Assembly: GCA_019636475.1 (NCBI GenBank)
Contig: JAHBXN010000006.1
Location: 62,001 to 126,000 of the forward strand
DNA length: 64,000 nt
Direction of reading: 5' to 3'
From: Phycisphaerae bacterium
Lineage (GTDB): Bacteria; Planctomycetota; Phycisphaerae; UBA1845; UTPLA1
In this document: positions 24,873 through 27,963 of the stretch, in pieces
Numbering within the stretch: the first letter of the stretch is position 1
How the letters are laid out: each line of letters opens with the position of its first letter
Notes under the pieces: model-generated
Database searches by the model: none
Told to the model about the DNA's origin: nothing
Seen by the model: the letters and a program-made list of their open reading frames with translations, nothing else
Made by a program: the position numbers and the translations under genes

Positions 24873-25805
24873 CTACCAGATCACCACGCGCGAATCAAAG
24901 ACGGGGCCTTCGCGACAACAAAGCGCATATCGCCAGCCGTCCTGTGCGCCTGCATCCTTCACCGGAACGACACACGACTGACACGTCCCCACACCACAGC
25001 CCATCACGCGTTCCATCGCAACCTGGCAAGACACCCCGCGCTCATCACACAGAACACTCACCGCCTTCAGCATCGGCTCCGGTCCGCACGCATAAACGCA
25101 AAACGCGCCGCCCGCCGTCCCGCTCAACCGATCAAGCGAAGCACCCAGCGCATCCGTCACCCGGCCCTTCAGACCGAAACTCCCGTCATCCGTCGTGATC
25201 AGTCCGGGAATGCCCATCCGGGAAAATTCATCGGCGATCTGCTCAAACTCCCCGGGATTCTTCGGTGAATGAGTGACGCGCAGCGGCAGCAACGCCTTCG
25301 ATTGCGCGCCCACGATCGCAAGGCAGGGAACACCATCCGATGCGAGCACCTCACCCAGCCATCGAATCGGCGGAAGTCCGATGCCGCCGGCAACCAGCAC
25401 GGCCGTCTCGCCGGCGCTTGGCGCGACAAACGAGCCGCCCAGCGGGCCGAGAAGATCAACTTTCTCGCCTCGCCTCAGCCCCGCCAGCCAGGCCGTGCCG
25501 ACGCCAACCACGCGACCCATGATATCGATCTCGGTGAATGAACCCGTCGATCGAAGCCCGCCAATGCTGAACGGGCGACGAAGCATCGGCCGCTCCGGAC
25601 ACGCGTCCGTGTTCCACCTCATCGCGTCGAAATCTTCGATCGATGTGCAGAATGCGTCCGGCTCGTGACAGAGTACCTGAATGAACTGCCCCGGCGCTGC
25701 CGCCGGAAATCCTTCAACAGCCAGAGTAATTTCAAAATGCTCGCGGCAAACAACCCGATTGCCCAGAACCTGCGCTTGAAAAATGCCCGATGCGGTCGGC
25801 GACAT
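24873..25805 (-). CDS. pyrK: Dihydroorotate dehydrogenase electron-transfer subunit
   Basis: About 310 residues. FAD-binding RRPFSIGG, NAD-binding AGGIGLPPIRWL, and a C-terminal [2Fe-2S] cluster site CGVGTCQSC plus a later Cys (YALCC). PyrK passes electrons from dihydroorotate dehydrogenase PyrD to NAD+ in pyrimidine synthesis. The reading frame extends to 25928, but that extension runs through the T-run of a terminator and is not protein-like; the ATG at 25805 begins just before the conserved N terminus. No clear ribosome-binding site is seen. The leader has terminator and switch-like structures. Confidence 0.85.
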   Translation of the reverse strand: MSPTASGIFQAQVLGNRVVCREHFEITLAVEGFPAAAPGQFIQVLCHEPDAFCTSIEDFDAMRWNTDACPERPMLRRPFSIGGLRSTGSFTEIDIMGRVVGVGTAWLAGLRRGEKVDLLGPLGGSFVAPSAGETAVLVAGGIGLPPIRWLGEVLASDGVPCLAIVGAQSKALLPLRVTHSPKNPGEFEQIADEFSRMGIPGLITTDDGSFGLKGRVTDALGASLDRLSGTAGGAFCVYACGPEPMLKAVSVLCDERGVSCQVAMERVMGCGVGTCQSCVVPVKDAGAQDGWRYALCCREGPVFDSRVVIW

Positions 25806-25906: not shown

Positions 25907-25948
25907 TCAAAAAAAACCACCGGCTCAAGACAACTCTTGAGCCGGTGG
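25907..25948 (-). terminator. Strong intrinsic terminator in the pyrK leader
   Basis: Minus strand: CCACCGGCTCAAG (25948-25936), loop AGTTGT, then CTTGAGCCGGTGG (25929-25917) and eight T residues. It is a perfect 13-bp stem. It lies ~100 bp upstream of the pyrK start and downstream of a promoter, so it either ends a small RNA or attenuates pyrK. Confidence 0.9.
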
Positions 25949-26021
25949 AGCGCCACGGCTAATAGAAGTAGCCGATAGCTGTGGCGATTAGCCTCTTGTT
26001 TAACCGGCGACGAAACGCCGG
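25949..26021 (-). ncRNA. Structured pyrK leader (attenuator/riboswitch-like) or small RNA
   Basis: Downstream of the promoter at 26.03 kb the minus-strand transcript has hairpin CCGGCG-TTTCGT-CGCCGG (26021-26004), then GGCTAAT-CGCCAC (25993-25981), a 17-base loop, and ATTAGCC-GTGGCG (25963-25951). GGCTAAT/ATTAGCC (7 bp) and CGCCAC/GTGGCG (6 bp) cross each other with no linker, so they should exclude one another: a bistable switch. GCCGGT of the first hairpin can also pair with ACCGGC of the terminator, giving an antiterminator. I know no named riboswitch with this layout. Confidence 0.55.
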
Positions 26022-26025
26022 AAGG

Positions 26026-26054
26026 AATCTATCACATCGCGCCGGGGGTGTCAA
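26026..26054 (-). promoter_or_regulatory. Putative promoter of the pyrK leader transcript
   Basis: Minus strand TTGACA (26049-26054), 17-base spacer, TAGATT (26026-26031). AT-rich sequence at 26070-26130 lies directly upstream and could act as an UP element. Confidence 0.65.
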
Positions 26055-26059
26055 CGAAA

Positions 26060-26520
26060 CAATCGCGATTTAACCTGCCGGCTATGATGATTATAACTAA
26101 CTGGAATAAATATAGTTACAATCGATACAGCGGGCCGGCCTCGCCTCAATCCACCGACCGCAGCTATTCCTAATCTACGGCAAATTACCGCCTCTGGTTT
26201 TATGTGAGAAAATTTCCTCACCGCCGGCTGGTGATAAACGATCGGCGCGCAATATAATAATCCATAATAGTTTATGCCTCGAAGCCCGTGGTCGCGGCGG
26301 CAAACTCATTTTTTTGACGCGGTGATTGTGATTTTCGGACGGCCCGGCCCGGCGACAGCGAGGCCAATTTTCTGGATAGGGGGGCGGCGGACGATCAATG
26401 GCGCGGCCATCGATCACCCGACATGCCGTCCGCGACGCCCAAACTATTGCGATGCGCACGCGGCGCTCGTATCTTCGAACAGGACATTCCCAAATTGGTC
26501 CCTTGTGAGAACTCCGCCCC
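26060..26520. other. AT-rich divergent intergenic region upstream of ffh
   Basis: Much more AT-rich than its surroundings (e.g. ATGATTATAACTAACTGG near 26085 and AATATAATAATCCATAATAG near 26251). It separates the pyrK leader from ffh and probably carries the ffh promoter. No gene or known RNA (no 4.5S signature) is seen. Confidence 0.45.
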
Positions 26521-27963
26521 ATGTTCGACGCCCTGACAGATCGCTTTCACGACGTATTCCGTAAGCTCCGCGGCCGAGGAAAGATCACCGAGGAAAACGT
26601 AAGAGAAGTAATGCGCGATGTTCGCACGGCGCTGCTTGAAGCCGACGTTCACCTCGACGTGGTCAAGCGCTTCGTCAACGACGTCACCCAGCAGGCTATC
26701 GGCGCCGAGATCATCAAGACACTCCAGCCCGAACAGGTCATGGTCAAAATCGTCCATGACGAATTGATCCAGTTGATGGGACCGATTGATTCGCGCATCC
26801 CCTGGGTCACGCCCGGGCCCACAATCATTCTCATGGCTGGTCTCCAGGGTTCCGGCAAAACGACCACCTGCGGCAAACTCGCAAAGTATTGTCTTGCCAA
26901 GGGAAAGAAACCGATGCTCGTCGCCGCCGACTTGAAGCGCCCGGCGGCCATCGATCAGTTGCAAGTACTCGGCGAACAGCTCGGCGTCGAAGTCCACACC
27001 GAACGAGATCATCAGAACCCCGTGAAAGTCTGCCGAAACGGCGTCATGGCGGCTCAGCGAAAGCTGCTTGACGTTGTCATCCTCGATACGGCCGGACGAC
27101 TCTCAATCGACGAAGAACTCATGCAGGAAGTCGCCAATGTCGCATCGGCCGTCTCGCCACACCAGATCTACCTGGTGCTCGACGCAATGACCGGCCAGGA
27201 TGCCGTCACGACCGCCAGACACTTCAACGAGCGCCTCGAGTTGGACGGCGTCATCATGACCAAGTTCGACTCCGACACGCGCGGCGGCGCGATCCTGTCC
27301 GTAAAAAGCATCGTTCAGAAACCGATCAAGTTCATCGGTGTCGGCGAGAAGCTGGATCGGCTCGAAGAGTTCCATCCCGACCGCATGGCGAGCCGAATCC
27401 TCGGCATGGGCGACGTCGTCTCACTCGTCGAGCAGGCCCAGCAGCAGGTAACCGCCGAAGACGCCGCAAAGCTCGAAGCAAAAATGCAAAAGGGCACGCT
27501 CACGCTCGACGACTTCATCGGCCAGATGGACAAAGTGATGAGCGGCCGCTCGATGAAGGACATGCTGAAAATGATCCCCGGCGTCGGCAAACTCATGCGC
27601 GACGCGGATATGAACATCGACGAAGGCGAAATCGTTCGCATGAAAGCGATCGTCCAATCGATGACCCCGCGCGAAAAAGCGAATCCCAAGCTGATCGACG
27701 CATCGCGAAGGCGGCGAATCGCCCGCGGCAGCGGAACCGATCCGGAGGATGTGAGCGGCCTGTGCAAACAGTTTCTCCAGGCGCGCGACATGATGAAACA
27801 CATGGCAGGCATGTCAATGATGGACCGCATGCGCTTCGGCTCACAGTTTGCCCAGTTGTCGATGGCCGGCGGCAAGATGCCGACGGTCAAATCAACGAGC
27901 GCCCCAAAGTACAAGCCAAACAAAAAGGACAAGCGCAAAGACCGCAAGCGGAAAAGCCGCTGA
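26521..27963 (+). CDS. ffh: Signal recognition particle GTPase Ffh
   Basis: 480 residues. The N domain (ALLEADVHLDVVKRF) is followed by the G domain: GLQGSGKTTTCGKLA (G1), DLKRPAA (G2), DTAGRL (G3), TKFDSDTRGGA (G4) and GVGEKLDRLEEFHP; then the methionine-rich M domain (~300-440) with the RNA-binding SRRRRIARGSGT. The last 30 residues are Lys-rich. Ffh with 4.5S RNA targets nascent membrane proteins to SecYEG through FtsY. AT-rich region upstream. Confidence 0.97.
   Translation: MFDALTDRFHDVFRKLRGRGKITEENVREVMRDVRTALLEADVHLDVVKRFVNDVTQQAIGAEIIKTLQPEQVMVKIVHDELIQLMGPIDSRIPWVTPGPTIILMAGLQGSGKTTTCGKLAKYCLAKGKKPMLVAADLKRPAAIDQLQVLGEQLGVEVHTERDHQNPVKVCRNGVMAAQRKLLDVVILDTAGRLSIDEELMQEVANVASAVSPHQIYLVLDAMTGQDAVTTARHFNERLELDGVIMTKFDSDTRGGAILSVKSIVQKPIKFIGVGEKLDRLEEFHPDRMASRILGMGDVVSLVEQAQQQVTAEDAAKLEAKMQKGTLTLDDFIGQMDKVMSGRSMKDMLKMIPGVGKLMRDADMNIDEGEIVRMKAIVQSMTPREKANPKLIDASRRRRIARGSGTDPEDVSGLCKQFLQARDMMKHMAGMSMMDRMRFGSQFAQLSMAGGKMPTVKSTSAPKYKPNKKDKRKDRKRKSR

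Follow-up and report, generated by a model that had tools for sequence, protein, structure and literature searches.

Upstream of pyrK on the minus strand of the window (the whole stretch of DNA analysed, 64,000 nucleotides from a Phycisphaerae bacterium) lie, in this order, a promoter, a structured leader and an intrinsic terminator. The arrangement raises the question of whether the leader is a bistable attenuator of pyrK, as a preliminary description of the locus proposed, or is itself the gene of a small RNA of ~110 nt that stands alone, as the same description offered by way of alternative. The features of the locus, in window coordinates, are:

26049..26054, minus strand: -35 hexamer TTGACA, seen in the sequence.
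26026..26031, minus strand: -10 hexamer TAGATT, separated from TTGACA by a 17-nt spacer and preceded by TG.
25909..26019, minus strand: predicted RNA of ~111 nt, with the 5' end estimated 7 nt past the -10 box and the 3' end within the T run.
26004..26021, minus strand: 5' hairpin CCGGCG-TTTCGT-CGCCGG, 6 bp (arms 26021-26016 and 26009-26004), lineage-variable.
25993-25987 and 25963-25957, minus strand: helix GGCTAAT/ATTAGCC, the first of two crossing helices.
25986-25981 and 25956-25951, minus strand: helix CGCCAC/GTGGCG, the second crossing helix, preserved in 15 nearer relatives.
25956..25974, minus strand: hairpin H2 (CGGCT 25974-25970, loop, AGCCG 25960-25956), conserved class-wide.
25952..25959, minus strand: near-invariant core GCCGUGGC, made up of the 3' arm of H2 and a linker.
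25909..25948, minus strand: intrinsic terminator with a 14-bp stem (25948-25935 and 25930-25917), a 4-nt loop and T8 (25916-25909).
25909..25980, minus strand: segment matched by both covariance models, R1 (71 positions, E 1.1e-15) and R2 (70 positions, E 4.4e-15), each of which has the window's own sequence among its rows.
24873..25805, minus strand: pyrK, dihydroorotate dehydrogenase electron-transfer subunit (Pfam DHODB_Fe-S_bind, E 1.2e-11), outside the RNA gene.
26521..27963, plus strand: ffh (SRP54), the divergent upstream neighbour (Pfam SRP54, E 1.9e-75).

The TTGACA-17-TAGATT promoter, the 6-bp hairpin and the same-strand pyrK about 100 bp further on were all found where the preliminary description had placed them, with the ATG at 25805, ~103 nt past the T run, judged by eye to be the likeliest pyrK start. 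The terminator is likewise present with its T8, but its stem is 14 bp and not the 13 bp given. The estimated +1 (~26019) cuts into the first hairpin (26021-26004). The leader folds at -63.2 kcal/mol vs. -41.0 +/- 3.8 kcal/mol in shuffles (z -5.87; 0/200 shuffles as good). The 8-mer GCCGUGGC by itself occurs in the window about as often as expected (6 matches vs. 5.3) and is not rare there. In line with the earlier statement that the leader matches no known riboswitch or PyrR site, Rfam 15 at gathering threshold yielded no relevant family in the window or in 10 relatives, and a permissive Rfam scan of 451 bases yielded only matches far below threshold.

According to the hypothesis that the leader is a cis-acting attenuator, the RNA adopts one of two exclusive folds, and a pyrimidine signal picks the terminator or the antiterminator. 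A nucleotide search through 41 related genomes located the same element in the window's own family and a few neighbours, and we assessed the helices in 15 aligned sequences by using RNAalifold and by counting paired cells for each helix. The terminator is part of the consensus, together with an outer CGCC/GGCG helix and the hairpin CGGCU/AGCCG. The two crossing helices emphasized in the preliminary description are indeed both complementary in the window's own sequence and do cross without a linker, but GGCUAAU/AUUAGCC is paired in just 64.8% of cells across the 15 sequences, vs. 93.3% for CGCCAC/GUGGCG and 100% for CGGCU/AGCCG. This last, a third helix that had been missed, is the helix conserved across the class; because the AGCC strand is common to it and to the GGCUAAU helix, the two are mutually exclusive, and it is CGGCU/AGCCG that has been retained. 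Two-sided changes in the inner helices are nil or single in the 15 sequences, and the conclusion therefore rests on the pairing percentages together with the class-wide picture.

The antiterminator shows the same pattern of presence in the window and absence from the class. The proposed pairing of GCCGGT with ACCGGC in the 5' arm of the terminator exists in the window's own sequence (z -1.27 for this copy) but has no class counterpart: across 69 copies linked to pyrK, pairing between the terminator's 5' arm and the sequence that precedes the terminator does not surpass that of shuffles (mean z +0.39; 1/69 at z <= -2). The same test on 44 copies not linked to pyrK gives a mean z of +0.31, with 1 copy at z <= -2. 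A transcription attenuator with conserved, mutually exclusive terminator and antiterminator is rejected by the helix pairing counts and the antiterminator test together.

We next consider how far the element extends. A degenerate pattern gave 72 matches in the named genome collection, 71 of which were read by eye as the element (two being truncated where the stored stretch ends); a Streptacidiphilus match was read by eye as a chance occurrence. The titles of the matched records comprise Phycisphaerae, Phycisphaerales and other planctomycete bins, plus two odd labels. In two records, titled Alphaproteobacteria (L039) and Blastopirellula marina (L043), the RNA lies beside pyrK; these are probably mislabelled or mis-binned contigs.

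Two covariance models were built, R1 from 71 sequences and R2 from 85 more diverse copies, with a choice of rows that is partly circular (the R1 sequences had been selected by pattern and by search, and the R2 copies were hits of R1). Among 298 genomes assigned to the class Phycisphaerae by record titles, R1 matches 158 (E <= 0.01) and R2 matches 156 (E <= 0.001), with two matches in three genomes and one in each of the others, and with no R2 match in the remaining 142. A laxer filter, applied to 40 chosen genomes (37 of them previously without a good match), gave matches in 11 at E <= 0.05. Of the copies so obtained, three look real: L211 and L212, whose positions coincide with those of L014 and L008, respectively, and also L213. 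In the eight remaining genomes the scores are 7e-4 or weaker; 9 of their 12 loci were read by eye and none was convincing, with L217 the most doubtful case. The existence of class genomes with no match, even under the laxer filter, indicates that some Phycisphaerae lack the RNA or carry it in an unrecognisable form. Phylum-wide, R2 matches 35/382 genomes at E <= 0.01, 18 of them in the class (E <= 1.5e-8) and 17 outside it (E >= 6.5e-6), and R1, run on 294 genomes, gives 2 matches outside the class. None of the out-of-class matches read by eye (2/2 for R1, 7/17 for R2) combines promoter, H2, core and terminator. We conclude that the RNA family spans much of the planctomycete class Phycisphaerae, usually as a single copy per genome. 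One out-of-class match, L200, has a core and a terminator and is by eye without a promoter-like site.

The preliminary description had staked its reading on conservation and covariation in related genomes, and both are present and strong. In 85 aligned copies (82 distinct), standard pairs occupy 97.2% of cells, a count that leans towards the model structure because the copies were aligned to the model; two-sided changes occur at 12/17 pairs, and the covariation score is 0.519, vs. 0.175 for shuffled alignments and at most 0.130 with partners slid. The covariation is located in the terminator, of which the upper stem covaries and the lower stem is conserved in sequence. H2 is paired in 98.8% of cells in the same copies and shows one-sided changes only, with no compensatory change, because its 3' strand hardly varies. 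The core GCCGUGGC is exact in 83/85 aligned copies; 49 of these 85 deviate from the pattern used in the scan, and among them the core is exact in 47. In one family (f15; L126, L156, L159), an extra apical stem-loop is inserted into the H2 loop.

A near-consensus sigma-70 promoter is present within 140 nt upstream in 114/121 distinct copies, vs. 5/459 control windows from the same loci, and 83 of the 114 promoter-bearing copies have a perfect TTGACA. By a promoter-based length rule, the predicted RNA is 74-169 nt long in relatives and 111 nt long here. The 5' part varies between families, as judged by eye, and often contains a hairpin. The element thus has what a stand-alone small RNA gene should have: a promoter and a terminator of its own, both predicted, and conservation independent of neighbour genes. 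Small proteins and leader peptides are rejected as products, the length of the segment between the H2 arms taking all three residues modulo 3; a coding frame through the core is rejected likewise, a stop being found near the core, in each phase, in 33 to 82 of 114 RNAs.

The genes that follow the RNA bear directly on the choice between attenuator and stand-alone RNA. Of 121 distinct loci, 74 have pyrK as the next gene (by blastp at E <= 1e-6), 10 a DegT-type aminotransferase and 2 PanC (pantothenate synthetase), the last two names having been given by eye from the sequences, with no family search behind them; the other 35, which include loci truncated at the end of a contig or stretch, have none of these. 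Pfam identifies a class II (D/K/N) tRNA synthetase, probably lysS, after the RNA at both loci of family f12, HAD hydrolases at 6/8 loci examined in f17 (the chosen frame at the other two having no Pfam match), an ACP phosphodiesterase at a single f22 locus, and, downstream in convergent orientation, cstA at one locus each of f10 and f20. On the other side, ffh adjoins the RNA, among the loci examined, in the window's own family and in one f3 copy (L162).

For 15 RNA-bearing genomes, all with a listed completeness of 90% or more and contamination of 5% or less, we searched for pyrK elsewhere. A pyrK match is absent in 5 (G003, G060, G082, G117 and G257; E <= 1e-10), lies elsewhere in 9, on another contig or far from the RNA, and is adjacent but divergent in 1 (G190). 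These counts are not a frequency, since the genomes were picked because the fetched locus had no downstream pyrK, and any one absence could reflect a gap or a divergent pyrK, since some genomes are drafts and the query was a single protein. One member of the window's own family (G003; L163:1-6001) has the order ffh, RNA, gph; pyrK is gone, with no match at E <= 1e-10 in a 92% complete draft. At two loci (L149:3683-4801 and L152:1208-2107), a PyrK-like oxidoreductase is encoded upstream, on the other strand; since the better pyrK match in G163 is ~5 Mb off, the upstream oxidoreductase is probably a paralogue. Across loci, the RNA is retained independently of pyrK. An attenuator should lie upstream of the gene that it regulates; here there are loci with no downstream pyrK and loci with other or convergent genes. 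The claim of a bistable pyrK attenuator accordingly does not hold up, its competing helix not being conserved and the RNA being kept where pyrK is undetectable or elsewhere, or where the next gene is convergent; the alternative offered beside it, a stand-alone RNA, is the better supported of the two.

The association with pyrK is nevertheless stronger than a wholly independent RNA gene would need: a co-directional downstream pyrK at 74/121 loci counts against a purely stand-alone reading. Among the 72 pyrK-linked loci for which a start codon could be assigned, by a mechanical choice, the gap from terminator to pyrK start has a median of 51 nt and does not exceed 60 nt at 44; 8/72 have an intervening promoter-like site of similar quality. 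Since pyrK is often too close to have a promoter of its own, and the gap is mostly free of promoter-like sites, read-through from the RNA's promoter is likely to be the simplest source of pyrK transcription.

The explanation that we favour, and regard as probable, is that the locus is the gene for a stand-alone, probably constitutive small non-coding RNA, usually single-copy, found in much of the Phycisphaerae and presumably acting in trans, with a leaky terminator that would feed pyrK in many lineages. The conserved promoter, structure and core are established by computation, as are the copy number and the independence from pyrK. A housekeeping-type sigma-70 promoter would start the predicted RNA, which would consist of a lineage-variable 5' part followed by a conserved 3' chassis, in which the CGGC/GCCG hairpin runs into GCCGUGGC and is followed by the terminator. 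The product would be transcribed as a discrete RNA, its GCCGUGGC strand and linker may be recognised by a protein or RNA partner, and its variable 5' part may carry lineage-specific contacts. In a secondary role, read-through of the RNA terminator would supply pyrK transcription in many lineages; dependence of pyrK on such read-through would explain why the linkage of RNA and pyrK persists.

The element represents a new family of predicted RNAs within the known category of stand-alone bacterial small RNAs, and an unusually conserved one. 6S RNA (RF00013) is stand-alone, single-copy and lineage-wide. The present RNA shares single-copy and stand-alone status with it but is shorter and has no long bulged hairpin; a divergent 6S is rejected, the genome's own 6S match above cut-off lying at a separate locus (G000:C3:352155-352348). 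Like the bacterial small SRP RNA (RF00169), the present RNA is short, ~100 nt, and stand-alone, and here it lies beside ffh, but the ffh adjacency is limited to the window's own family and the one f3 copy among loci examined; a divergent SRP RNA is rejected, the genome's own SRP match lying at a separate locus (G000:C1:561342-561441). Hfq- and ProQ-dependent trans-acting sRNAs combine a hairpin and a U-tailed terminator with a variable 5' part. The present RNA has all three but, unlike them, keeps its core sequence over the whole class. Within the window's own order and family, to which the searches were confined, Hfq was found in 0/41 relatives and ProQ in 0/21, and an sRNA dependent on either chaperone is rejected on that ground. 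In PyrR-dependent pyr attenuators, a leader and a terminator stand ahead of a pyr gene, as they do here; the present RNA differs in having no Rfam match at threshold and no antiterminator signal, and in occurring in genomes without a detectable pyrK. The Rhodopirellula-1 motif, given in excerpts of Weinberg 2010 (PMC2864571) as a candidate structured RNA for Planctomycetes, with no Rfam number, resembles the present RNA by that description only, and the present models have no convincing out-of-class copy among those read. Among the matches listed, the titles and abstract openings of literature on Phycisphaerae or planctomycete small or noncoding RNAs, on pyrK attenuation and on the core sequence contain no account of the present RNA, and no literature on small RNAs of Phycisphaerae was found among them.

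A more specific form of the favoured explanation, which we put forward tentatively, is that the RNA is a housekeeping-type non-coding RNA of the Phycisphaerae with a standing like that of 6S RNA: a single, constitutively expressed gene, whose GCCGUGGC would take part in an essential interaction, independent of Hfq and ProQ, with a protein, polymerase or the ribosome, and whose leaky terminator would have come to supply a promoter to pyrK and, subsequently, to other genes.

Overlapping with the favoured explanation, and differing from it in that read-through is controlled, is a dual-function reading in which the RNA acts in trans and its terminator is also regulated, a protein on the GCCGUGGC hairpin controlling read-through into pyrK or a replacement gene. 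The position of the conserved hairpin directly before a terminator with a sequence-conserved lower stem fits this reading, as does the lack of a promoter-like site in the gap before most pyrK genes (present in 8/72); but no structure that would compete with the terminator is apparent, and in some lineages nothing co-directional lies downstream, and we regard it as rather unlikely. The cis-acting attenuator is improbable. It accounts for the order promoter, leader, terminator, pyrK, for the downstream pyrK at 74/121 loci and for the short gaps mostly without promoter-like sites, but its alternative helix is not conserved, the 69 pyrK-linked copies give no antiterminator signal, and the RNA is kept in genomes where pyrK is undetectable or far away and at loci with other or convergent genes downstream.

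Very improbable, in our view, is that the RNA serves to bind CsrA as a sponge. CsrA is present in 20/21 relatives, and there are 3.1 GGA per RNA vs. 1.7 in letter shuffles (114 RNAs), an excess due in part to the conserved CCGGAAG stem. A GGA lies in the terminator loop in all copies examined of f12 (2), f20 (3), f21 (7), f22 (7) and f25 (3) and in single copies of f13, f28 and f29. Against this, the loop GGA is present in just 1/8 copies of f17 and is absent from the copies examined of f1 (9), f2 (1), f4 (4), f5 (2), f8 (4), and f14, f15 and f16 (2 each). With GGA loops in some families and none in others, CsrA binding would be at most lineage-specific, and for the window's own copy a sponge is ruled out, that RNA having no GGA at all. 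Within lineages, the GGA loop sequences UCGGAGC, AUAGGAG and CAGUGGAUGA occur repeatedly; none of the nine own-family copies examined has them. Least probable of all is that the locus is just a strong promoter and an ordinary terminator, with a functionless RNA between: any promoter-terminator pair yields a short transcript, and the 5' part is not conserved between families, but ordinary terminators, to our knowledge, do not keep their sequence, and here the core is near-invariant over the class, covariation is present, and the RNA is kept up where a neighbour gene is undetectable.

Class-wide single-copy non-coding RNAs beyond the few universal ones are, as far as we know, rare. The present locus yields an RNA family for which a covariance model is ready for use, whose core is fixed and can be mutated, and which includes natural cases without the neighbour gene. 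A promoter-terminator unit serving as the promoter of pyrK, as suggested here, is a plausible route by which a metabolic gene becomes tied to an RNA gene. The finding, though not the switch first described, is more interesting than an attenuator would have been. In the window, the ffh intergenic region also contains, just upstream of the RNA promoter (26074-26138), an imperfect inverted repeat of 26 nt that is 73% complementary.
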